A stretch of 43,127 nucleotides of DNA from a virus. Shown here piece by piece: positions 253 to 43,021 of this stretch (its first letter is position 1; each line of letters starts with the position of its first letter). The notes beneath the pieces were generated by a model that was given only the letters and a program-made list of their open reading frames with translations, was not told the origin of the DNA and searched no databases. A program made the translations under genes and the position numbers. The DNA lies in the IMG/VR virus record IMGVR_UViG_3300009551_000073, positions 1 to 43,127 of that record. One strand, given 5' to 3'.

Positions 253-1278
253 GTGATACCACGAACTTATTGTCAAATTAAACCAATCCCGCATATCCGA
301 CGAGATCCGGACATCGAGGCACAACTGGCGCGGTTCGACATGTACATGTCGAGTTGCGGAAAATCGGTAAATACGAGACGCCTCTACCTTGGCGCGCTGC
401 GCCGCTGGTTCGCCGCCGGTGGCGCCCCGCTCCATGTCGACAATGATCGATTGCGCGCTTGGCTGTACGAGCGCCGCAGTCGTGTCGGGCAGTCGACGAT
501 CAATGTCGAGCTGCGTGCGTTGCGCGCTTGGCTTCGCTACCAGCACGTGCTTGGCGCGATCGAGGCGTCCCAAGAGATCGCCAAGCTCCCGCGACAGCGC
601 CGTACCACGGCTAGGTTGCCGCGATACCTGACTGACGATCAAATCGGCCGCGCCATGGCGGTCCCGGACCCGACGACATTGATCGGGCTGCGCGACCTTC
701 TGATGATCCGTGTGCTTTATGAAAGCGGCCTGCGCGCTGGCGAATTGGCCGCGCTCGAGCTCGGGGATGTGCTTCCGGACGGTTGGCTGTACATTCAGAA
801 TGGCAAATTCGGCAAGAGCCGCTACGTGCCGGCGACAGCAGAAACACTGGCCATGATCGACGTCTACAGGCAGCGCCGCAGCGCCGCTGGCATGAGCCGC
901 TGTAGGCGTGTGTTTGTCGGCCGTAGCGGCAAACCACTTAAAGCGCAAAGCGTATGGGAGATCATCTCGCGCTGCCTTCGGGCGGCGGCCGGCATTGGCG
1001 CTGGGTTCGGTGTGCTGCGCAGTGGGCACAAGGCGCGGCCATGGACCGGACTTTATCCTCATATGCTGCGTGCCAGCTTCGCGACCGCGCTGTTGAATGG
1101 CGGCTGCCCGATTACCGCTATCCGCGAAATGCTCGGCCATTCTGACCTGTCGACGACAGCTATCTATTGCGGCGTCGATCTTGAACAACTGAGGAAAGCG
1201 GCTGGATGTCATCCTCGAGCGCATCATGCCAGCTCCAATGCCTTGCACGAAATTGAATCAACCATGGAAATTCGCTGA
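253..1278 (+). CDS. Xer-like tyrosine recombinase (phage integrase)
   Basis: This 341-aa protein catalyses site-specific strand exchange, presumably at the adjacent dif-like att site. An N-terminal SAM-like core-binding domain (about 20-110) precedes the catalytic domain with Arg161 (SGLRAGEL), Lys188 region (GKFGKSRYVP), His270-x-x-Arg273 (HMLRASF), His296 (LGHSDLSTT) and nucleophile Tyr305. The ending QLRKAAGCHPRA resembles the C-terminal tail of XerC/XerD, unlike most phage integrases. The frame opens only shortly upstream and its first usable start is GTG 253. It is transcribed away from att and converges on the methyltransferase, overlapping its 3' end by 55 bp. Confidence 0.88.
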   Translation: MIPRTYCQIKPIPHIRRDPDIEAQLARFDMYMSSCGKSVNTRRLYLGALRRWFAAGGAPLHVDNDRLRAWLYERRSRVGQSTINVELRALRAWLRYQHVLGAIEASQEIAKLPRQRRTTARLPRYLTDDQIGRAMAVPDPTTLIGLRDLLMIRVLYESGLRAGELAALELGDVLPDGWLYIQNGKFGKSRYVPATAETLAMIDVYRQRRSAAGMSRCRRVFVGRSGKPLKAQSVWEIISRCLRAAAGIGAGFGVLRSGHKARPWTGLYPHMLRASFATALLNGGCPITAIREMLGHSDLSTTAIYCGVDLEQLRKAAGCHPRAHHASSNALHEIESTMEIR

Positions 1279-3991: not shown

Positions 3992-4269
3992 TGCGCAACC
4001 CTCCTTGGCTTCGCGGAGCGTATATTCCGTCGCGGCTTTTGCAATGTATACAATGCGACATGCGCATCCCGCTTGTGTCGGGTTGGCTTCTTGACGATCT
4101 CGGTAAGGATGCGATAGCCAGCGATGCGCAGCACATGAACGAGCGTCGCGGGACGGAGCGATCCGGTAGATCGCATTAGCTGCAGTGTGGTGCGCGGCCC
4201 CTTCTTGAGTTCGGTAAGCGCGTCTGCGCATTGCGGGGTCAGCGAGGTCACGCCTGTGGAAATTGTCAT
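3988..4269 (-). CDS. Putative winged-helix DNA-binding protein
   Basis: In this 93-aa protein the centre, TTLQLMRSTGSLRPATLVHVLR, reads as a helix-turn-helix, followed by a basic wing-like segment (KKPTRHKRDAHVALYTL) and a very basic C-terminus (KPRRNIRSAKPRRVAQ). This resembles small phage winged-helix regulators. It overlaps the sliding-clamp gene by ATGA. It could regulate the early operon or bind DNA non-specifically. The family assignment is tentative. Confidence 0.55.
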   Translation of the reverse strand: MTISTGVTSLTPQCADALTELKKGPRTTLQLMRSTGSLRPATLVHVLRIAGYRILTEIVKKPTRHKRDAHVALYTLQKPRRNIRSAKPRRVAQ

Positions 4270-5372
4270 AGCGTCATCCCAACGATGATGTGAGCGTGCG
4301 GCAAAACTTCGGCGCCCGGAATATCCGGTTCAATGGTTAGCCGATCGAATTGGTCGGCAATCTTTACATGGCCGATCCACACCCTTTCCGTGTCGATGAC
4401 GGAAAGCACATCAGCGAGGTAATGCATCGAGAGAGAGAACCGAATATCGCCGTCGTGCTTGCTCAGCGCCCACGAGCAATTTTCTTCATTCTCGAAAATT
4501 TCGAGTTTCGCCCCGCCCGCTTGGACGTCCAAATAGGCGCCCTTGAATGATGCCTTTGGTATGCCTTCCACGGCAGTGAAGGGCATGAATTGCTTCACCG
4601 CTTGCAGTAGTTTGACTCGATCAAACAACGCACGTCGATCACGTTGATCGATGCCGGTGAACACATTTTCGTATTGCGGCAGTTCTGCGGCGATCAGCCG
4701 CACAATCAATGTCCGCTCGCCATTCTCGACCCGCAGCATTGTGGCCTGCCCTGCCGCATTCGACGTGTACGAAAGCTTTGCATCCGGCCCGAGTTGGGCG
4801 AGCACGGAATCTATCTGGCCCTCCGGTATAGCAATCTGTGGGCCGTTGTAGGCGATCGTGTACTTCGCTGCTCGATGGGTGTCCGTCGCCGCCACGGCGC
4901 CGGGAACAAGAGCGACCAAGTTCGCAAAGGCGTAGGCGTTGTTGTGTCCTGCGGCGTAGCCGACCAACCGCAGCGCGGTGGCGAGTTCAGCGCCATCGAC
5001 GTCGAGCGGCTTCCAATTACCGTGATCCGGCTCGGGGAAATCATCGGCATCGAGTACGGGTAGCCGCAACTTCGATCCGCCCTTCGGCGCCGCCTGCATG
5101 ATGCCGCTGTCATCGTTGTGCAGTAGTGCCAATCTGCCCTCGCGTGCCGCGGCGCGAAGCAGTTCGATGTTGACGCAGATGCGTCCGTTTGCCGGCACCT
5201 TCGCAGGCAAATCGGCGATGAAGTACGCTTCTGTGTCAGTTGTTGTGATGCGCACACGTTCGCCAGCCGCATCAAGCAGCGCGAAGCTGAGGATGGGGAG
5301 CGTAGAGCGAGGCTTATAAATCGCGGCACGCAGCGTGTCATGCAGCGCGCCGCCATCGAGTTCAATCTTCAT
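4266..5372 (-). CDS. dnaN: DNA polymerase III beta subunit-like sliding clamp
   Basis: This 368-aa protein, close to the 366 aa of E. coli DnaN, should dimerise into a ring tethering polymerase to DNA. Three repeats of the clamp fold fit the length. Recognisable parts are LPILSFALLDAAGERVRIT near residue 25, the VPANGRICVNIELLR strand-helix, the TDTHRAAKY motif near 165 (matching DnaN ATDGHRLA), and a C-terminal TIEPDIPG segment. The start is ATG 5372, overlapping the upstream gene. No polymerase or clamp loader is present, so it would need host Pol III or clamp-loader parts, or act as a competitor of the host clamp. Confidence 0.87.
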   Translation of the reverse strand: MKIELDGGALHDTLRAAIYKPRSTLPILSFALLDAAGERVRITTTDTEAYFIADLPAKVPANGRICVNIELLRAAAREGRLALLHNDDSGIMQAAPKGGSKLRLPVLDADDFPEPDHGNWKPLDVDGAELATALRLVGYAAGHNNAYAFANLVALVPGAVAATDTHRAAKYTIAYNGPQIAIPEGQIDSVLAQLGPDAKLSYTSNAAGQATMLRVENGERTLIVRLIAAELPQYENVFTGIDQRDRRALFDRVKLLQAVKQFMPFTAVEGIPKASFKGAYLDVQAGGAKLEIFENEENCSWALSKHDGDIRFSLSMHYLADVLSVIDTERVWIGHVKIADQFDRLTIEPDIPGAEVLPHAHIIVGMTL

Positions 5373-5916
5373 TGAAGCCTCCCTTCTTAGATGCCTCCTT
5401 GCGCGCCGCGCATTCGCCAGCCAGCGCGAAATAAGCGGAGCCCTTCTGATAGTCGCCTGGAGAATGGGCGCCGGCCGTTGCGCGCGCAGCATTGAGCACG
5501 GCCATGAACAGCCAGCCATCGCGCTCGCTGATGAGATTGCCCGTCAGCACGTTGAACGCTTCGACAGTTCGCGCCATGCTGCGCTCACCGCCGGGCTGGT
5601 CACGCACGCGGCCTTGAGCGACGATGCCGTAGGCGGCTTGCTCGAGAAAATCCTGCGCACATGGCTGGGCGGGCAGATCCTTCTTGAAGCCAGTGATGAT
5701 TTCGTGAGCCTTCTGCGCCATCCGATCGAGTTCAGCACCGATCGCTTCCGGCGCAATATCCGGTCCCTCAATTGAGCGCTGCAATGAATCGTGGATTGTC
5801 TTCTTGATGCGTCGCGCGGTGCCTTTGCTGATCGAAAGATAAGCGCGTTTTGCGCGGGCTTTCTTGAGGGCTCTGGCTTGACGTTCGGCACGTTGTTTCT
5901 TGGTCATCTGTTTCAT
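5362..5916 (-). CDS. Hypothetical basic protein
   Basis: This 184-aa protein has a strongly basic N-terminal 40 residues (TKKQRAERQARALKKARAKR) that could bind nucleic acid. The remainder is mixed helical with no motif I recognise (ITGFKKDLPAQP; AFNVLTGNLISERDGWLFM). It sits between the second tyrosine recombinase (ATGA overlap) and the sliding clamp (11-bp overlap), so the three are probably translated together. A role with the recombinase or clamp is only inferred from position. Confidence 0.6.
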   Translation of the reverse strand: MKQMTKKQRAERQARALKKARAKRAYLSISKGTARRIKKTIHDSLQRSIEGPDIAPEAIGAELDRMAQKAHEIITGFKKDLPAQPCAQDFLEQAAYGIVAQGRVRDQPGGERSMARTVEAFNVLTGNLISERDGWLFMAVLNAARATAGAHSPGDYQKGSAYFALAGECAARKEASKKGGFNED

Positions 5917-6875
5917 GTCATGGCTCCGATTTGGTCGAGGTCGGCGCGTTCGCGGACTGCGCGATGCACCACGTTGAGGGCGTGCGCGCCGTACACGGCG
6001 GCAGTGGTAGCTGGGCTGGCATGGCGCGCGATGCCTTGCGCGACCTTGAGCCCGAGCCGTTCGGTGATGTCGCCTATACGCCGGTGGCGTAGTAGGTGCA
6101 GATGCATGCGCGGTAATCCCACCCGGGCACCGCGTTGCCGGATAACGCAATGCACGGCTTGTCGCGTCATGCGCTGACCGCGATTGCTCACGAACAATGC
6201 GGTGCAGCCCGGCTCCGCATGCCGGACTTGCAGCCATCGCTCGAGGGCGCGGCCGGTGGCATCGTTGAATGGCACAGTACCTTCCTGCTCACCTTTGCCG
6301 AGCACTCGCACCTCAAGCCGTTTGAGGTCTACGGTATAGCGAGACGCACCCGGAATATCGAGCCCAAGCACTTCATGCACCCGAATGCCCGTATCGAGTA
6401 CCAGCCGCAACAGTGTGTAGTCGCGTGTATCGATCCGCGTCGAACCACTTCCGCGCGGAATCGCATCGAGCATGCGCATCAACGCATCCATTTCTGGGGC
6501 GATCACTTGCCGCGGACGGAAGCGCACTTGAATATCGCGCGCCGGGTCATGCTCCATCCAGTGCTCACGCACTGCGTGCTTGAGGAAGCCTTTCAATGCG
6601 CAGAGCTTGCGCGCTTGAGAACGTGGGGAAAGCCCTTCCCTCGATAGCCTGGCGAGCCAACGCTCGACTGCACTTTCACCGATGAGGGCAACGACACTGA
6701 TGCGCTCTTCGGTGAAATAGTCAATCGCGCTCTGCAGATCGACGGCATACGCCCTAACCGTATTGCGCGATGCGCCGCGCAAACGAATGTGCCCGAGCCA
6801 ATCCGCCACAGCGGCGTCAAGAGGCACAAGGCGTATTTTCCGGCCGCCGAGATCGAACACCTGAGCGGTGTTCAT
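5913..6875 (-). CDS. Tyrosine recombinase in early operon
   Basis: This 320-aa protein has a SAM-like N-terminal domain (RGASRNTVRAYAVDLQ, residues 34-48) and a catalytic domain with Arg165 (DTGIRVHEVL), Lys194 (LGKGEQEGTVP), His260-x-x-Arg263 (HLLRHRR), His285 (IARHASPATT) and Tyr295. The full catalytic set appears intact. The position, inside a lytic-direction operon and 6 kb from att, argues against a simple integrase. It could resolve multimers, invert DNA or serve as a second integrase. It overlaps both neighbours by ATGA junctions. Confidence 0.85.
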   Translation of the reverse strand: MNTAQVFDLGGRKIRLVPLDAAVADWLGHIRLRGASRNTVRAYAVDLQSAIDYFTEERISVVALIGESAVERWLARLSREGLSPRSQARKLCALKGFLKHAVREHWMEHDPARDIQVRFRPRQVIAPEMDALMRMLDAIPRGSGSTRIDTRDYTLLRLVLDTGIRVHEVLGLDIPGASRYTVDLKRLEVRVLGKGEQEGTVPFNDATGRALERWLQVRHAEPGCTALFVSNRGQRMTRQAVHCVIRQRGARVGLPRMHLHLLRHRRIGDITERLGLKVAQGIARHASPATTAAVYGAHALNVVHRAVRERADLDQIGAMT

Positions 6876-7180
6876 GGCGCCACCGGCGGCAATGTCGAGG
6901 CGAGCGAAGGCGATGGGGTTACTATGAATCGTTTGGATGCATCGTTCGGTGCGAAAGAATAGTTACCCAGCGCAAACGTGCTCGGCGTGACGCCATACGC
7001 GGTCAGCATTGCGTAGAGTTGTTGGCACAGATTATCGAAATCTGCGGTTGACAATTCGAACGCCGCACGCGCGCTCATCATCGCGTTGAACGCGATGGCA
7101 TTCGCCTCGCATGAGACACAAATCTGGCTCGCGAGCGCCTGCAGTTCGTCGGACTGCTGCTGCGTGATCGTATCGGTCAT
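6872..7180 (-). CDS. Hypothetical phage protein
   Basis: This 102-aa protein is rich in Ala, Ser and Asp, mostly helical, with QICVSCEANAIAFNAMMSA in the middle and a proline-rich end (PSPSLASTLPPVAP). No family recognised. A good Shine-Dalgarno (AAGGGGGCG) precedes the ATG, and an 8-bp stem hairpin sits just before it, so translation may be structure-sensitive. It overlaps the recombinase gene downstream by ATGA. Confidence 0.55.
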   Translation of the reverse strand: MTDTITQQQSDELQALASQICVSCEANAIAFNAMMSARAAFELSTADFDNLCQQLYAMLTAYGVTPSTFALGNYSFAPNDASKRFIVTPSPSLASTLPPVAP

Positions 7181-7189
7181 CGCGCCCCC

Positions 7190-7214
7190 TTGGGGCCACT
7201 TGCCGCGGCCCCAA
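7190..7214 (-). promoter_or_regulatory. Strong hairpin before the 6872-7180 gene
   Basis: TTGGGGCC (7190-7197) and GGCCCCAA (7207-7214) form a perfect 8-bp stem with a 9-nt loop. On the minus strand it is followed by the Shine-Dalgarno of the next gene, not by a T-run. It is therefore more likely a translational control or pausing hairpin than a simple terminator. The rest of the 81-bp gap shows no clear promoter. Confidence 0.4.
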
Positions 7215-7261
7215 CGTCCTGTATACTTATGAACATAGTCGTTTTCCTCACGGGTTTTCGG

Positions 7262-7828
7262 CTATTTGACGCCTGCGGTTGTCGCCGCAGGCGTTGTCGT
7301 TTGTGGGAGTACCATCAACGCACGCACGGATGCAGTACCCACTTGCTCGACTTCGCTCAAATTGGTGAGTGTCACGATCGTGTAGATGGATTCAGGCGTG
7401 GTGATCCAAATATCCGACCACGTCACCGTGCCCGTCACATACGGATTTCCTGTCTCGACGGTCGTCATAGGGTTGCCGAGCGTCGTCAACGGAACGGGGA
7501 CTAGCGGCGAATCAGAATCGAAACTCGCGATGATGATCACGATAGAGCGCGCAGCCAATGTGTACGACGTGGCGCATCGACCCTGCGCAAACACAGCATC
7601 TCGCTGAAGATGACAGTTGACCGATAGCTGTGGCGGCAATGTCACTGCCTGCGCGATTTGATGCTGTTGCGCCGCCTGCAACTCCGCGAACTGCTTCGCT
7701 TCGGCGTGGGCAATGCGGCTCAATCCCAGAGCGGCGCCGAACAGCGTCAGCACGCCACCGAATACGGCGATGAGAAAGAATTTCGTGAAGGAGAGATTTT
7801 TCATATGTTGCCCAAGTTCGACTTTCAT
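7262..7828 (-). CDS. Membrane-anchored protein of unknown function
   Basis: This protein of about 188 aa has an N-terminal hydrophobic helix (FFLIAVFGGVLTLFGAALGL), a short polar linker rich in Gln and Ala, then a beta-rich domain (TTVETGNPYVTGTVTWSDIW) and a Thr-rich tail. It would sit in the inner membrane with the C-terminal part in the periplasm. ATG 7828 lies 1 bp after the upstream stop behind GGCAGG; ATG 7804 is an alternative. Such proteins in phage early operons sometimes act in superinfection exclusion, but nothing here proves that. Confidence 0.55.
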   Translation of the reverse strand: MKVELGQHMKNLSFTKFFLIAVFGGVLTLFGAALGLSRIAHAEAKQFAELQAAQQHQIAQAVTLPPQLSVNCHLQRDAVFAQGRCATSYTLAARSIVIIIASFDSDSPLVPVPLTTLGNPMTTVETGNPYVTGTVTWSDIWITTPESIYTIVTLTNLSEVEQVGTASVRALMVLPQTTTPAATTAGVK

Positions 7829-7829
7829 A

Positions 7830-8408
7830 TCAGCCTGCCTTTGGAGTGAGTGAGACAACGGGAGAACCGTCGCCGAGTGCCTCGGTCAGACGGGTTTTGA
7901 TCGCGACGGTCGTGCTCAGCACGTCGTCGAGTTCGCCGAGTGCGCGCTTCGCTGAGGCACGCTGATGCGGCAGAATCGAATTTCCATCGAAAGCGGGTGC
8001 AAGCAAAGCCAGGGCCTCGCCGGTCTCGCGCATCAGCGCCGCGGCGTCGGCGACGGCCGCACCATGCCCTTCGCGCGGCATTGGCGCGGCGAGTTCGCCC
8101 ATTCGCGCGGCCAGCTCCCGCCGGCATTCGCTTTGAAATGGCTCTGGCAATGCGAGCACGAGCGCTTCCTCGATCTCGCAAGGCAGCTTCGCCGGATCAT
8201 CCAGCAAACGCTGCAATGTCTGCGCGTTCAACTTCTCGTCGCTGTACGGATCGCGCGTCGTGCGGAAGTGAATGCCACGCGTCGCCACCGGCGTCCGCGC
8301 ATCGTATTCATCACGCACATGTGTCGCATAACTGCGAAATGTCAGCGCGGAGTTCTTCACCGCCATGATGATGTGATGGAGCAAAACGTTCGGACGCGAT
8401 TCACGCAC
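7830..8408 (-). CDS. Possible CII-like phage regulatory protein
   Basis: This 192-aa protein starts at GTG 8408, 7 nt after GGAG and overlapping the upstream stop. The N-terminal part (VLLHHIIMAVKNS, then YSDEKLNAQTLQRLLDD) recalls the P2-type regulatory CII (CP76) family, in which a DNA-binding N-terminus is followed by a helical bundle. The central stretch EIEEALVLALPEPFQSECRRE also fits that layout. Position downstream of Cro agrees. Treat the assignment as tentative. Confidence 0.45.
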   Translation of the reverse strand: MRESRPNVLLHHIIMAVKNSALTFRSYATHVRDEYDARTPVATRGIHFRTTRDPYSDEKLNAQTLQRLLDDPAKLPCEIEEALVLALPEPFQSECRRELAARMGELAAPMPREGHGAAVADAAALMRETGEALALLAPAFDGNSILPHQRASAKRALGELDDVLSTTVAIKTRLTEALGDGSPVVSLTPKAG

Positions 8409-8691
8409 GATCTGGCTCCTTAACTGTGGCGGCCGGAGTAGTCGGCGGCGGGGACGTGGCCTTTTCATAAATCTGCAAGCGTCGACTCATTTCTTCGAGA
8501 CCGTGCGTGAGATAGCCCAATCGAAACGTGTAATCAGAAAGGCGCTGCTCTATCGTCATATCCGCGAAGTTCTTCCAAGCGCTCGCGATCGGAAGAAGCG
8601 TAAGCAGCGCGAGCTTGGTTTCCAGCAATGCCACGGCTTCGCGCGTTGCGGAATTCTTTGCCGGTGTGGGGATTGAGCGAACGTTGCTCAT
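8401..8691 (-). CDS. Hypothetical phage protein
   Basis: This 96-aa protein has a helical middle (ETKLALLTLLPIASAWKNFA; LTHGLEEMSRRLQIYEKA) and a proline/threonine-rich end (SPPPTTPAATVKEP). No signal peptide and no family recognised. ATG 8691 lies 2 bp after the stop of the preceding gene. It belongs to the early leftward operon. Confidence 0.5.
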   Translation of the reverse strand: MSNVRSIPTPAKNSATREAVALLETKLALLTLLPIASAWKNFADMTIEQRLSDYTFRLGYLTHGLEEMSRRLQIYEKATSPPPTTPAATVKEPDRA

Positions 8692-8942: not shown

Positions 8943-9148
8943 GCCGCTTTCCCCTTCGCATCGAGAAACTTCTCGTACATCGTCAGGCAGTTCGCCACGC
9001 GGTCTTTCCACGAACCCAAGCCCGTCCACGCGCTAAAGCCGAACTTGCCATTCACAAAGTTTTGTTCGTCAAGATGCAGCCCGTTCTGTGCCAACACGTA
9101 GGCCGCTTCACTGCGAGTCAACTCGTCTTGCTCTTCAATGTTTCGCAT
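8939..9148 (-). CDS. Small conserved phage protein
   Basis: This 69-aa protein reads MRNIEEQDELTRSEAAYVLA, then FVNGKFGFSAWTGLGSWKDR, ending in a basic helix. No motif I can name. ATG 9148 lies inside the 3' end of the serine recombinase gene (14-bp overlap). Codon use and coupling suggest it is real. Confidence 0.5.
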   Translation of the reverse strand: MRNIEEQDELTRSEAAYVLAQNGLHLDEQNFVNGKFGFSAWTGLGSWKDRVANCLTMYEKFLDAKGKAA

Positions 9149-9950
9149 TGGCTGAAACCTGAATTTCTGGAAAAGTGGAAATTGCAGCACTACCCTTCTC
9201 TGCCATCGGCAAATGGGCAAGGCTGTCATGGGTTTCGCAGATGTTTTTCAGCGTGGATTTCGACCAGTACCGTTCGCCCGTCGGGCTCGGCGTGCCGTTC
9301 AGACGCAAGTTCTCGCGGATGCGCGAATAGGAGATGCCACTTTCGCGCTGCCGCACGATCCACTCGCGCATTCCCCAACTGTTCGGGTCACGGAACAGGT
9401 AGGCACCGCGCATGCGGTCACGACCGTCAACACGATCGATATATGCCTCACCGCCCTCGGCGATGCAGCCGAATGGCACCACGCCGAATACCCTGCCCTG
9501 CTCACGCAATGCGCGATTGGTTTCGCGGCCGCGCTGTACATCAAGCCGGCGTGCATAGTCGGCAGTGGCCAATTGCATGATGAGCCCCAACCAGCCGGAC
9601 GGCGTGGAGGTATCCAGCACCTCGGTCACGCTGTGCACGCAGGCGTCACAGGCAACGAGTTCTTCTTCGAAAAAGCGCAGGCCGTCGAGCGCGTTGCGGA
9701 ACAGCCGGTCAAGCCGTACCACAACGACGCCCGACGCCCTGCCAAGACGCAGCGCTTGCTGAAGCGCTGCGCCACCCTGCCGCTTCGCCAGGGGAAGCGA
9801 AGCGGAGACGCCCTCGTCGACAATCACGTCGACGAGTTCATGCCCGTACAACGCGCAGTAGTCACGCACACGGGTCTGCTGATGTTCGATCGAATGCCCC
9901 TGCCCTGCCTGCTCTTCGGTCGAGACGCGGATATAGGCGATCAGGCGCAT
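9135..9950 (-). CDS. Serine recombinase (resolvase/invertase family)
   Basis: This 271-aa protein starts with the resolvase catalytic domain: Arg8 and Ser10 nucleophile (IAYIRVSTEEQ), then VVVVRLDRLFRN with Asp81, Arg82 and Arg85, matching gamma-delta resolvase D67/R68/R71. A long helix (LATADYARRLDVQRGRETNR) leads into a short C-terminal DNA-binding part (SYSRIRENLRLNGTPSPTGER) resembling the Recombinase domain of larger serine integrases, but the protein is shorter than those. It follows cro with no gap, so it is probably expressed early in lytic growth. Its target site is unknown. Confidence 0.88.
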   Translation of the reverse strand: MRLIAYIRVSTEEQAGQGHSIEHQQTRVRDYCALYGHELVDVIVDEGVSASLPLAKRQGGAALQQALRLGRASGVVVVRLDRLFRNALDGLRFFEEELVACDACVHSVTEVLDTSTPSGWLGLIMQLATADYARRLDVQRGRETNRALREQGRVFGVVPFGCIAEGGEAYIDRVDGRDRMRGAYLFRDPNSWGMREWIVRQRESGISYSRIRENLRLNGTPSPTGERYWSKSTLKNICETHDSLAHLPMAEKGSAAISTFPEIQVSANAKH

Positions 9951-10160
9951 TTAGGCGGCCCTCGCATAGATCTGATCGAAGGTGAGCCCCGGCAATTGCT
10001 CAATCAGACGCTTAGCGTTCGCGGGGTCTGGGAGGTCCGTATTGGTTTCCCAGCGCGAAATTGTTGCTTTTGTGACGCCGATCGCATTACCCAAGTCTTG
10101 CTGGGTCCGATTGGTTCGCTGCCGCGCGAGCCGTATGGGGTTGGGCTTGTGCTTTGACAT
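9951..10160 (-). CDS. Cro-like HTH repressor
   Basis: This 69-aa protein has an HTH_3 domain: RLARQRTNRTQQDLGNAIG, then VTKATISRWETNTDLPDP, with helix 3 at TKATISRWE. It is divergent from the CI-like gene and shares its operators. ATG 10166 gives a two-residue longer form. Neither start has a clear Shine-Dalgarno; a TTGACT -35 at 10195-10190 with a weak -10 near 10176-10170 would place the mRNA start near the ATG, so a leaderless message is possible. Confidence 0.78.
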   Translation of the reverse strand: MSKHKPNPIRLARQRTNRTQQDLGNAIGVTKATISRWETNTDLPDPANAKRLIEQLPGLTFDQIYARAA

Positions 10161-10167
10161 GAGCATA

Positions 10168-10219
10168 GTTTCGGAAAACGAAACTCAAAAGTCAAGTACT
10201 ACGAAACTTTGGGGTTTCG
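10168..10219. promoter_or_regulatory. Divergent operator region between cro- and CI-like genes
   Basis: Two inverted repeats use the same half-site: GTTTCG (10168-10173) with CGAAAC (10179-10184), and CGAAAC (10202-10207) with GTTTCG (10214-10219). A TTGACT -35 for leftward transcription lies between them at 10195-10190. The first palindrome covers the likely -10 of cro and the second abuts the CI start, the usual arrangement for a bistable lysogeny switch. Confidence 0.7.
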
Positions 10220-10221
10220 TA

Positions 10222-10572
10222 ATGCGTTACTCTGCGCGCATGGACACCTTCGGCTCGCGACTCCGCGTTGCCCGGCAGGCGATAGGCATGACGCAGCAAC
10301 GTCTCGGGGACGCGTTAGGGGTGAGTAAGGGAGCGGTTTCGCGCTGGGAAAGCGGAATAGATCAACCTAAGTTTGACCTGCTTCCGGAACTCCGGAGCCG
10401 TTTGCGTGTCAGCCTGGACTATCTAATCTGCGGCGCCAATGGCAAATCGATCGCCGACACCGGAGCACCCCACCATCTCATCGATGACGATGAGAGGCGC
10501 GTGCTTGCTGCCCTTCGAAAGATGTCGGATGCGAAGCGCGCCGGAGCAATTTCATTCCTGACGGGCGAGTAG
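10222..10572 (+). CDS. CI-like HTH repressor, short form
   Basis: This 116-aa protein has an N-terminal HTH_3 domain (LRVARQAIGMTQQRLGDALG, then VSKGAVSRWESGIDQP) and a short C-terminal region ending DERRVLAALRKMSDAKRAGA. It lacks the S24 peptidase domain of lambda CI, so it cannot self-cleave; induction must use another route. ATG 10222 is preceded by GGGG at a fair distance; ATG 10240 is an alternative start. It is first in the rightward lysogeny transcript. Confidence 0.78.
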   Translation: MRYSARMDTFGSRLRVARQAIGMTQQRLGDALGVSKGAVSRWESGIDQPKFDLLPELRSRLRVSLDYLICGANGKSIADTGAPHHLIDDDERRVLAALRKMSDAKRAGAISFLTGE

Positions 10573-10576
10573 CGCA

Positions 10577-11119
10577 ATGTGGAAAAGTATATTTATCTTC
10601 GTTCTTTTTCTTACGCTCCCGCAAAGAATTCTCGCCGCGGAAGACTTGAATATCAAAGGGATTAAAATCGGCACCACATATGGCGAGTTGAAGAGCGCTT
10701 TTCCGGCTGACCTGGATTGCTTCGCCGCTAACAATATGGGCAAGGATGCGAGGATCTGCTATCGAAAGGCAGGCAGTGATTCGTACGCCGGCGACACGGC
10801 CAGAATTTCTTATACCCTTCGCGCGGACACAGTCGTAGCGATCGACGTGGCAAAACTTTCGCCTGAAAAATATGATGCGGTCATGGTTGGGCTCAGCGAA
10901 AAATTCGGCAAGCCCACTGATATCGGCCACGGACAAGTCGAGTCGCGTATGGGCGTCAAGTATGAAAACTTTAATGCGCAATGGCATCGCGGCGATTTGC
11001 TGCTGAGCATTGAGAAATTCGACGGCTCGATCAACGAAATGGGGATACATCTCGTATCCATCACGGCTGCGAAACGACAAGCCGTAGAGATGAGCCAAAA
11101 AGCGAAGAGCGATCTATGA
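10577..11119 (+). CDS. Secreted protein of unknown function in lysogenic operon
   Basis: This 180-aa protein begins with a classical signal peptide (MWKSIFIFVLFLTLPQRILA, cleavage probably near AAEDL). The mature domain contains IKGIKIGTTYGELKSAFPA, a pattern of small periplasmic proteins, and two cysteines that could form a disulfide. It starts 4 bp after the CI-like stop, so it is expressed in the prophage state. This is typical of a lysogenic conversion or exclusion gene (moron). The precise role is unknown. Confidence 0.6.
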   Translation: MWKSIFIFVLFLTLPQRILAAEDLNIKGIKIGTTYGELKSAFPADLDCFAANNMGKDARICYRKAGSDSYAGDTARISYTLRADTVVAIDVAKLSPEKYDAVMVGLSEKFGKPTDIGHGQVESRMGVKYENFNAQWHRGDLLLSIEKFDGSINEMGIHLVSITAAKRQAVEMSQKAKSDL

Positions 11120-11253
11120 ATCGCCTAGGCCGAATACTCGGCCACGCCAAGCGCCTAGCCGAGCAAATCGAACAGATCAAGCGGCCACCCGGTCGGCCGC
11201 CGTCAAAGACTCCGCCGCCGCGGAATCCCCCTACCCCGTCAAAAAAGAAGTAG
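11116..11253 (+). CDS. Small basic proline-rich protein
   Basis: This 45-aa reading frame overlaps the upstream stop by ATGA. It begins with an amphipathic helix (MNRLGRILGHAKRLAEQIEQ) and ends with a proline/lysine-rich tail (KTPPPRNPPTPSKKK). It is the last gene of the rightward lysogenic unit and lies just before a hairpin. Coupling supports it; function unknown. Confidence 0.4.
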   Translation: MNRLGRILGHAKRLAEQIEQIKRPPGRPPSKTPPPRNPPTPSKKK

Positions 11254-11259
11254 CGGAGT

Positions 11260-11275
11260 ATCGCCGCGAGGCGAT
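11260..11275. terminator. Hairpin between convergent operons
   Basis: ATCGCC and GGCGAT with a GCGA loop lie in the 23-bp gap between the rightward lysogenic genes and the leftward late operon. A weak CCTATTT follows on the plus strand. It is the expected position for a bidirectional terminator, but no good T-run supports it. Confidence 0.4.
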
Positions 11276-11276
11276 C

Positions 11277-11597
11277 CTATTTGCGGCACACCGATTGCTG
11301 CCCAGGCACCGGTTCAAGTACACCTTTGCGTTCAAGCTCACACAAGCAAGCGGCGAGCGCGCGTTGAGCAATCTGGCATGCAATCGTTCGGCCATTGTTT
11401 TCCGCGTCAGCGGTCAGGGCATCCGCGGCGCTGTCGCCGGCATCGGCGACAAGTGGATCGCAAGGCCGCATGACCTCCACATCACATTGGACGATCTTGG
11501 GCGGAGATGGAGGTGGACTCTTCCACCTGTCTGCGGCGCAGCTCGCGCACAGAATCAGGCACGATGCAAGCAACAAGTTTTGAATCGGCATGCGCAT
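11277..11597 (-). CDS. Rz1: Outer-membrane spanin, Rz1-like lipoprotein
   Basis: This 106-aa protein has a lipoprotein signal (PIQNLLLASCLILCASCAAD) followed by the proline-rich WKSPPPSPPK stretch typical of o-spanins. ATG 11597 has AGG about 8 nt upstream. The gene overlaps the 3' end of the Rz-like gene in another frame by 116 bp, the classic overlapping Rz/Rz1 arrangement. It should join the inner and outer membranes with Rz at lysis. It is the last gene of the late operon. Confidence 0.75.
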   Translation of the reverse strand: MRMPIQNLLLASCLILCASCAADRWKSPPPSPPKIVQCDVEVMRPCDPLVADAGDSAADALTADAENNGRTIACQIAQRALAACLCELERKGVLEPVPGQQSVCRK

Positions 11598-13002: not shown

Positions 13003-13518
13003 TCATGTATTGTCTTCGGCTGCACGCAACTGCCTGTAGTAACTCTCGATGCGCGAGACATACGTGCGAGTCTCAAGCGAACCTGCAGGCCCGGTCACCG
13101 CCGGCAGATAGGCCATGATCGTTTCGAAGTCATTCGCGCCGTCGGCCGCTTTCTGCGCCTTGAGCATGTTGCCCATGCCAGTGTTGTAGGTGGCCAACGT
13201 CAGGCGCCAGCGCTCGAGATCGGGTCGTGGTGCGGTCCACTGCTTGCGCAGCGTATCCATGTACCAAGCAGCGCCGGGAATGGCGAACGCCGGATCAAAT
13301 GGCGATGCTGATTGCGGGAATCCCATGCGATTGCAAACATCGACCCACGTCGCCGGCATGAACTGGGCAATGCCCTTCGCGCCGACCGGGCTGACTGCTT
13401 TCGGGTCGAGCTGACTCTCTTGGAATAGCTGCGCCTTGAGGCGCAGCCAGTCCCAATCCGGCAGGTACGAATTGCCCGCAAGCCGTATCTGCTGATCGTA
13501 GGTCAGCGGAATCCGCAT
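13003..13518 (-). CDS. Lytic transglycosylase (SLT family), probable endolysin
   Basis: This 171-aa protein is essentially one soluble-lytic-transglycosylase domain: catalytic Glu34 in QLFQESQLDPKAVSPVGAKG, then IAQFMPATW, and a later LATYNTGMGNMLKAQ matching the family AYNAG motif. It would cleave the glycan strands of peptidoglycan to form anhydromuramic ends. No signal peptide, so release by a holin is expected. Start ATG 13518 is preferred over GTG 13521. It lies in the lysis cassette. Confidence 0.85.
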   Translation of the reverse strand: MRIPLTYDQQIRLAGNSYLPDWDWLRLKAQLFQESQLDPKAVSPVGAKGIAQFMPATWVDVCNRMGFPQSASPFDPAFAIPGAAWYMDTLRKQWTAPRPDLERWRLTLATYNTGMGNMLKAQKAADGANDFETIMAYLPAVTGPAGSLETRTYVSRIESYYRQLRAAEDNT

Positions 13519-13522
13519 CACG

Positions 13523-39714: not shown

Positions 39715-40277
39715 GCCTGCTCCTCCGAGGCTTCGATCAAAAATTGAAGATTGCTTGCAGACAAATTCGACCCACGCGCGCGCATTGCTTTTACCAACTC
39801 CCTCAGCTTCGATACCGGCACGGATGGCTCGGGCTGCGCAGTGTAAGAAGGTGAGCCAGCATCAAACCACGCCTGAATGTCTGCTTTGAATTCAGCACAA
39901 GAGTTCGGATCGTCCAATGCGGCAGATAACCATGACCCAAGTTTTATGGACGATTCACCCGGCGCAACAAGCATCGGCGCGACGGCTTCGAGCAACGCGC
40001 GCATATTCCGTCGCCCGATGACCTTTTCGCTATCCGGATATGCCGACCACGGTTTGCGCGCGACGATTTCCGCAAAAATTTCCAACGCGCGTTCAACAAC
40101 CTTATCCGTCACACCCTTTCCCGCCGCTTGCATGAGCGCAGCGAGTTCGCGGATCACAACGAGCGCCATTCGTACATCACCCATGCTGGGGGTGAAATCA
40201 GACGATTTCTGATCTGCACCTGCCTTTTGAAGTCGATCAGCCAGCGCAAGCAATTCCGTAAAAGTATACTTAGCCAT
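39711..40277 (-). CDS. Hypothetical phage protein
   Basis: This 188-aa protein is largely helical (YTFTELLALADRLQKAGADQ; MALVVIRELAALMQAAGKGV) with a C-terminal stretch VSKLRELVKAMRARGSNLSA. ATG 40277 follows a GAGAAAGAGAAA leader and overlaps the tyrosine recombinase stop by 8 bp. No family recognised. Confidence 0.5.
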   Translation of the reverse strand: MAKYTFTELLALADRLQKAGADQKSSDFTPSMGDVRMALVVIRELAALMQAAGKGVTDKVVERALEIFAEIVARKPWSAYPDSEKVIGRRNMRALLEAVAPMLVAPGESSIKLGSWLSAALDDPNSCAEFKADIQAWFDAGSPSYTAQPEPSVPVSKLRELVKAMRARGSNLSASNLQFLIEASEEQA

Positions 40278-41337
40278 TTTCTCTTTCTCCCATTTTCTTC
40301 GCCCATCTCGGCATTCCTTCCGGCGCCGTTCCGAGCACCTCATGTTGACGAAAGGCTTTCAAACGAAAGCGACGCTGACGATCCGACACCGCGATGTATT
40401 TGCGCGTCGTCTCGATATTTTCGTGGCCGAGCAAAATGCGAATTCGCTCGATGTCGTATCCATCGTCGTACAGTTGCGTCGCGAATGTGACGCGAAAGCG
40501 ATGCACACCCCAATCACCAAGCCCGGCGCGTTTGGCGATGGATCGCACTACAGATTCAATAGTTTTTTCTCGCATCTGCATCCCCCACCAGTTGCGACGC
40601 ACGGTGACGAAGACACAATCGGTTCTGATGTTGTCCAACTTGCCGCGCGTGGCGAGCCAGTCGCGCAATAAGCGAACAGCTGGACCCTCGATTGCGACTT
40701 CGCGCTCTTTTGCACCCTTCCCATCAATGCGAAGAATCGCGATGCGTTCATCCAGCTCGATCTGATCGATTCGTAGTGTCGCTATTTCCAACCGACGCAT
40801 GCCTGTTACCCAGAGCAACGCAAGCAATGCTTCATCGCGTTGCGATACCAGTTGTGTAACGCCCTTCCTTGCCGCGACAAACAATTGCTGCAATTGTTGC
40901 TTTGTATATTTTCGTGGTGTTCGTTTCGGAATCTTTGGTGAACGAACGCCGTCGACGCAGTTGCGCCCAAGACCGCGTGTGCAGCGCCAGTCGTAGAAGC
41001 TACGCATGGCGACGAGTGCGCACGCGCGACTGCCTGCACCATTGCGACGACGGAAATACAGATCGCGCTGCCATTCGTCGATCGAATCAAGCGGCAGATC
41101 GGTATAGTCGAGATCCCGCTCCATCACCCAATCGGCGAAGCCGCCGACTGATGCCGCATATGAGGCCATCGTGCCTATCGCCAGTCCGCGCGACGCCGAC
41201 AGCCAAAACACCCAACGCCATATTTCCGCTAGCCATTCAGGCGCGGCCACAAGCGACGCGCGGCGTTCATTCGCGCGCATCACTGCGCCGAGACGGGGAA
41301 GCGCCAGAATCGCGTCACGCTGCGTTTGGCTGCTCAT
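40270..41337 (-). CDS. Tyrosine recombinase near the right end
   Basis: In this 355-aa protein a SAM-like N-terminal domain (ASYAASVGGFADWVMERDLD) precedes the catalytic domain with Arg181 (VTGMRRLEIATLR), Lys207/210 (DGKGAKEREV), His279-x-x-Arg282 (VHRFRVTFA), His305 (LLGHENIETT) and Tyr314. All catalytic positions are present. It differs clearly in sequence from the recombinases at 253 and 5913. It lies in the rightmost operon, ATGA-coupled to the small protein before it. Integration, resolution or multimer control are possible. Confidence 0.85.
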   Translation of the reverse strand: MSSQTQRDAILALPRLGAVMRANERRASLVAAPEWLAEIWRWVFWLSASRGLAIGTMASYAASVGGFADWVMERDLDYTDLPLDSIDEWQRDLYFRRRNGAGSRACALVAMRSFYDWRCTRGLGRNCVDGVRSPKIPKRTPRKYTKQQLQQLFVAARKGVTQLVSQRDEALLALLWVTGMRRLEIATLRIDQIELDERIAILRIDGKGAKEREVAIEGPAVRLLRDWLATRGKLDNIRTDCVFVTVRRNWWGMQMREKTIESVVRSIAKRAGLGDWGVHRFRVTFATQLYDDGYDIERIRILLGHENIETTRKYIAVSDRQRRFRLKAFRQHEVLGTAPEGMPRWAKKMGERENG

Positions 41338-43004: not shown

Positions 43005-43021
43005 TGTATATTATGTAAAAT
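43005..43021 (+). repeat. dif-like direct repeat, candidate attR core
   Basis: This is identical to 160-176 and in the same orientation. The adjacent left 11 bases (ATCCGAAATTC) differ from those beside the left copy. The distance to the IS-like array on the right (36 bp) is nearly the same as on the left (36 bp). A crossover between the copies would excise about 42.8 kb carrying all phage genes. Confidence 0.65.

Follow-up and report, generated by a model that had tools for sequence, protein, structure and literature searches.

A prophage repressor unit with an exported cargo protein of an unnamed, widely spread family

Among the closest described systems are superinfection exclusion proteins, with which the locus analysed here shares the placement of the gene in the lysogeny module, with the repressor. 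P22 SieA is described as an envelope protein that the prophage expresses and that stops DNA from being injected (PMC10883804); unlike the protein considered here, it is an integral inner-membrane protein. Ltp of Streptococcus phage TP-J34 is described as an envelope protein of the lysogeny module that is transcribed in the prophage state (PMC3952083), and differs in that it is a lipoprotein and its host is Gram-positive. Glo, from Vibrio phage K139, is described as a soluble periplasmic prophage protein with a role in exclusion or immunity (PMC3952083, PMC4870250); our protein is likewise predicted to be a soluble periplasmic prophage protein. PHROG 16676, a group of Pseudomonas phage proteins of unknown function, resembles our protein in signal peptide, two cysteines, a match in the C-terminal part and a location on the repressor side. 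The identity to the Pseudomonas relative is, however, only about 24-26%, the N-terminal part is poorly alignable, and the PHROG 16676 genes do not directly adjoin the repressor. The BLIP-like superfamily (BLIP, SmpA_OmlA, PepSY and DUF2874) comprises periplasmic proteins for which an inhibitory function has been proposed (PMC2954215). Predicted export and a modelled tandem repeat of a helix and four strands are common to this superfamily and our protein, whereas the latter lacks a Pfam match, has an extra C-terminal helix and carries a cysteine pair and a tryptophan of its own.

Layout of the repressor unit and its control region

The stretch of DNA analysed (the window) is a virus record of 43,127 bases; a near-identical copy, L001, differs from it at one base in 12,540. 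At 10240-11253 lies a genuine lysogeny unit whose exported cargo comes from a family that is widespread and has no name, and its sequence suggests a repressor operon bearing two cargo genes (Table 1). A sequence-only reading of this DNA had placed a signal-peptide gene 4 bp past a CI-like gene, followed by an ATGA-coupled 45-aa gene. Both arrangements are confirmed: the CI frame runs from 10222 to 10572 on the plus strand with the next ATG at 10577, and the 180-aa and 45-aa frames overlap at 11116-11119. The CI-like frame is real as well, but the start at 10222 probably is not. The distinct metagenomic virus contig L005, found through a search with the serine recombinase, has no ATG matching 10222 and its conserved reading begins at the ATG matching 10240, so CI probably starts there and is 110 aa long. 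NCBIfam matches of CI to the RstR, DicA and VC1465 families fall below the cut-offs and were set aside as generic HTH similarity.

Table 1. Coordinates of the repressor unit, its control region and other features of the window
Feature	Position	Strand	Basis or remark
CI-like repressor, N-terminal HTH	10240-10572	+	ORF open from 10222; Pfam HTH_3, E 7e-13; conserved start 10240
180-aa exported protein	10577-11119	+	signal peptide about residues 1-20; Cys48, Cys61, Trp136
45-aa basic proline-rich protein	11116-11253	+	ATGA-coupled; GRPP stretch
cro-like HTH regulator	9951-10166	-	divergent from CI unit; Pfam HTH_3, E 5e-11
Serine recombinase (resolvase domain)	9135-9950	-	Pfam PF00239, E 1e-22; PHROG 95, E 8e-38
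CII-like activator	7830-8468		near CI unit
Transglycosylase-type endolysin	13003-13521		among lysis genes convergent to CI unit
Tyrosine recombinase (integrase)	253-1278	+	PHROG match
Further tyrosine recombinases	5913-6875 and 40270-41337	-	
Operator-like dyad 1, AGTTTCG-N5-CGAAACT	10167-10185		inverted-repeat scan
Operator-like dyad 2, TACGAAAC-N6-GTTTCGTA	10200-10221		inverted-repeat scan
Leftward (early) promoter-like site, TTGACT-N17-GAAACT	10167-10195	-	by eye; suggestive only
Weak terminator-like inverted repeat after the 45-aa gene	11257-11278	+	not listed by consensus scan

The same three genes stand in the same order in L005, with a spacing of 3 bp and then of 4 bp, the latter with a GTG start. 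Identity between the window and L005 is 78% for CI, 48% for the exported protein and 44% for the 45-aa protein, and dN/dS by the Nei-Gojobori method is 0.11, 0.29 and 0.31, respectively, rough values as dS is saturated. Synonymous change thus proportionally exceeds replacement change in all three, and with the order conserved all three look like real genes. For the 180-aa gene a chance frame is ruled out by this frame-conserving divergence together with the cysteines and tryptophan of its family.

The first gene after the cro-like gene is that of the serine recombinase, which shares 82% identity with its L005 counterpart; the one phage thus encodes this enzyme and three tyrosine recombinases. 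The claim that the CI unit holds the only rightward genes besides integrase stands as far as it was tested. All PHROG-matched genes outside the unit point leftward except integrase, and none of the 10 scanned among the 14 other rightward frames of a non-overlapping ORF list has a PHROG match; in the two such regions that were opened, leftward ORFs span the same stretch. Two leftward genes elsewhere in the window deserve mention: 2905-3414 matches PHROG 4786 at E 3.6e-49, a group whose label, cysteine dioxygenase, is unexpected in a phage, and 4266-5519 encodes a protein like a DNA polymerase processivity factor (PHROG 947, E 2e-33). An exact 17-bp direct repeat, TGTATATTATGTAAAAT, at 160-176 and 43005-43021 flanks the element beside integrase. 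We take this repeat to resemble the XerCD site dif, so the prophage may sit at dif.

In the control region, which separates the divergent cro-like and CI genes, a stretch of 52 bp holds four CGAAAC/GTTTCG half-sites that make up the two dyads, whereas the window as a whole has 0.79 per kb; L005 keeps two such half-sites. The leftward promoter-like site, absent from the list of the consensus promoter scan, has a counterpart at the same place in L005, TTGACA-N17-GAAACT, again by eye. The consensus scan finds no rightward promoter-like site between the CI start (10222) and the 180-aa gene, and one inside the latter at 10847. L005 can form a perfect stem of 11 bp (L005 4602-4627) at the position equivalent to the inverted repeat that follows the 45-aa gene. 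The expression in the prophage state that had been claimed for the cargo is thus well supported by anatomy as predicted co-expression with CI: the tight spacing, the ATGA coupling, conservation in L005, the upstream dyads and the lack of an intervening promoter-like site all point to it, and so does the inverted repeat.

The 45-aa protein, known here from two distinct sequences (the window and L005), is basic and proline-rich. Its GRPP stretch, RGRPPK in L005, is AT-hook-like by eye, and a search of Pfam at E 10 gave no match. It would stay in the cytoplasm and probably bind DNA there in an accessory role.

Relatives of the exported protein

Read by eye, the N-terminus of the 180-aa protein is a Sec-type signal peptide, MWK-SIFIFVLFLTL-PQRILA/AED, and similar N-termini occur among members of its family. 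Direct searches yield little. There is no Pfam or NCBIfam family match, and the PADLOC models give no family at E 1 for either the 180-aa or the 45-aa protein. The sequence-only reading had called the family unknown, which holds in that no curated named family covers the protein; PHROG 16676 does so weakly, matching residues 97-179 (the C-terminal half) only, at E 1.2e-5, while the L005 protein matches it at E 7e-5 per record. Against phages at E 0.01 there is no match, and a tblastn comparison at E 10 with 50,697 phage records returns two weak records. Neither is Ltp or Glo and neither is annotated as an exclusion gene; the known exclusion proteins considered were Glo, Sim, Cor, Llp, SieA, Ltp and gp15. 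A single-protein search of viral contigs found only L001, and a search of genome contigs with a two-sequence alignment found no match. The one weak tblastn match among plasmids (E 0.04) is to a Pseudomonas aeruginosa plasmid record. Relatives were reached via the serine recombinase, this Pseudomonas protein and profile searches of genomes.

The protein of the P. aeruginosa plasmid record is a full PHROG 16676 member (436 bits), and its gene is found in a phage-like region, on the side of the repressor. Relatives of this protein are encoded on sixteen phage contigs, three of which (L107-L109) form a second group with 64% identity to the Pseudomonas protein. In 14 of these loci the gene has an S24-type repressor upstream of it, on the same strand; L105 and L108 have no S24-type repressor match. 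In the Pseudomonas loci the repressor is 100, 99, 88, 39 or 32% identical to the reference, and the exported protein at least 94%. Retention of the exported protein while the repressor varies suggests that the cargo persists whatever the immunity type, which is what one would expect of heteroimmune exclusion; the same flank could also be left if repressors were simply exchanged as modules. Three Pseudomonas alleles (L101, L102 and L105) read ILASC in the signal peptide where the others read ILASG, a possible lipobox.

Profile searches of five genome draws, whose groups partly overlap and whose E-values are per genome, found relatives in 2 of 369, 3 of 200 (E 0.01), 2 of 398, 13 of 233 and 12 of 349 genomes, the last two being draws from one bacterial family and one order, respectively. 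We aligned 34 sequences, leaving out L117, L118, L124, L125 and near-identical Pseudomonas copies, and dropping L126 (the same place as L112); 25 rows were taken stop to stop with no choice of start, and the two frames of L113, which is broken near its start, were read separately and left unmended. Trp136 is present in all 34 rows, Gly111 in 33 and Gly126 in 32, while Cys48 is found in 30 of 32 and Cys61 in 33 of 33 non-gap rows. The family signature is a signal peptide, a cysteine pair, K[YF]G-x-P and an invariant tryptophan, and on this evidence from sequence the exported protein is a low-identity member of a widespread family without a name. The proposed periplasmic location is well supported by the signal peptide and the two cysteines, conserved family-wide; such a pair fits an oxidising, exported location.

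The settings of the relatives are mixed. Besides those on the repressor side in Pseudomonas and environmental phages, one (L114, opened as L121) lies, by eye, tail to tail with an S24-type repressor. Two sit in integron cassette arrays: that of L115 at 5469-6095, flanked by attC-like repeats at 5383-5437 and 6107-6161, and that of L116, with its frame broken near the start, at 5402-5974, where the array counts 17 copies of the repeat. On the Aeromonas veronii plasmid pHD6454-KPC (L124) the relative at 6863-7558 has a toxin-antitoxin pair on one side and an IS3-like element on the other. Most cellular relatives sit in chromosomes, away from repressors, and in none of 20 cellular regions, each judged by eye with the ORFs read over their first 85 residues, does a repressor adjoin. 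L117 and L118 share a chromosomal setting, again by eye, with an AsnC-type regulator and a chloride-channel-like gene alongside. The family therefore need not act on phages.

Predicted fold

Structure prediction, proposed in the sequence-only reading, was carried out: the AlphaFold2 model of the exported protein (pLDDT 79, pTM 0.74) has, in strand order only, a helix and four strands, twice, and then a C-terminal helix. The model of the Pseudomonas relative is weak (pLDDT 60) and too poor for a structure search. The VIA-align matches listed include the YdcD double-wing domain (Z 9.4, rmsd 3.1, 112 aligned), on which the fold assignment rests, SAV1118 (Z 8.4, rmsd 4.0, 131 aligned), YjgB (DUF4309; Z 8.3, rmsd 4.4, 123 aligned) and the putative beta-lactamase inhibitor protein 3d4e (Z 5.0, rmsd 4.8, 87 aligned). 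BLIP and BamE are absent among the VIA-align matches listed, which excludes nothing. The modelled architecture, a double alpha-beta repeat, agrees with that of the BLIP-like periplasmic superfamily.

Other searches are less informative. Foldseek against the PDB gives nothing at E 0.001, the best match being a weak one at E 4.8e-3; in a library of viral structures the three best matches are at E 1.1e-4 to 1.4e-3, and two of them are named lipoprotein. A sequence profile search of the PDB returned one irrelevant match (E 0.57), and a literature search found no paper on the YdcD double wing. Eight family members scanned against Pfam at E 1 gave two weak matches, to unrelated families and in one member each; at such distance absence decides little.

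Proposed role of the exported protein

While the phage lies dormant, CI would bind the CGAAAC operators and silence the leftward cro-recombinase promoter, while being made itself from a weak rightward promoter. The same message would also yield the 180-aa protein, which, given its conserved signal peptide, is expected to be exported by Sec and to lose that peptide. In the periplasm it would form a Cys48-Cys61 disulfide and, as modelled, fold as a BLIP-like double repeat. There it would most likely bind and block an envelope step of an incoming phage, with the tip of its tail, the conduit of its tape measure or a peptidoglycan enzyme of its virion as candidate targets; such superinfection exclusion would act beyond the reach of the repressor.

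Another phage, L007, whose recombinase is 44% identical, carries an unrelated lipoprotein gene (4780-5193, minus strand) ATGA-coupled to a repressor-like gene. The lipoprotein resembles NCBIfam BPTD_2524 at E 0.01, below the cut-off; L006 does not differ from L007 anywhere along its length, and no lipoprotein gene of this type was seen in the Stenotrophomonas locus L014. This hints that the slot beside the repressor carries envelope proteins. The earlier suggestion that exclusion or conversion factors are typically expressed from the prophage and located in the periplasm holds as a pattern, in the repressor-side relatives and the L007 lipoprotein; the chromosomal majority of the cellular relatives speaks against a phage-specific role.

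Exclusion of other phages by the envelope cargo of a lysogeny operon is, on the sequence evidence, plausible and our best single guess, if somewhat short of an even chance. In its favour are the conserved unit, the operator-like dyads, the 14 of 16 phage loci with the gene on the repressor side, the tail-to-tail relative, the L007 slot, the integron cassettes, the fold and the described precedents; the chromosomal relatives, the lack of a PADLOC match, the near-absence of similarity among phage records and the weak Foldseek match count against it. Close behind ranks lysogenic conversion with no part in phage competition, in which the protein would inhibit or regulate a host envelope enzyme (a peptidoglycan hydrolase, protease or similar) to the benefit of the host. 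The inhibitory function proposed for BLIP-like proteins (PMC2954215) agrees with this, as do the relatives in the family and order draws, mostly not beside repressors, and that on the Aeromonas plasmid, yet a host target alone leaves the repeated placement beside phage repressors unexplained.

The remaining explanations have less in their favour. The patchy distribution and mixed contexts would suit a mobile accessory gene acquired by the phage and functionless in the lysogen, but purifying selection and the order and tight spacing retained in two diverged phages make such a passenger quite unlikely. Very unlikely, in our estimate, is that the protein serves the cycle of the phage that encodes it, say by binding this phage's endolysin in the lysogen so that leaky lysis is avoided: the lysis genes are convergent neighbours and the protein would share the periplasm with their targets, but relatives without an adjoining lysis cassette occur, in chromosomes, integrons and a plasmid among others. 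That the frames downstream of CI are chance ORFs is extremely improbable; we found no point in support, and both the divergence from L005, which conserves frame, and the cysteines and tryptophan shared by family members speak against it.

Carried further, the exclusion reading would make this a family so far overlooked, whose members are soluble periplasmic proteins with a disulfide and a BLIP-like fold, act against phages at the envelope and are carried by prophage repressor operons, integron cassettes and plasmids, the chromosomal copies providing an innate envelope defence; we regard this broader proposal as unlikely. If true, it would add a soluble periplasmic family acting at the envelope, with no match in the PADLOC library, to a poorly covered part of phage defence. 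The compact signature and its recurrence beside phage repressors and in integron cassettes yield a short candidate list, and should exclusion fail, the same list would lead to candidate periplasmic inhibitors.
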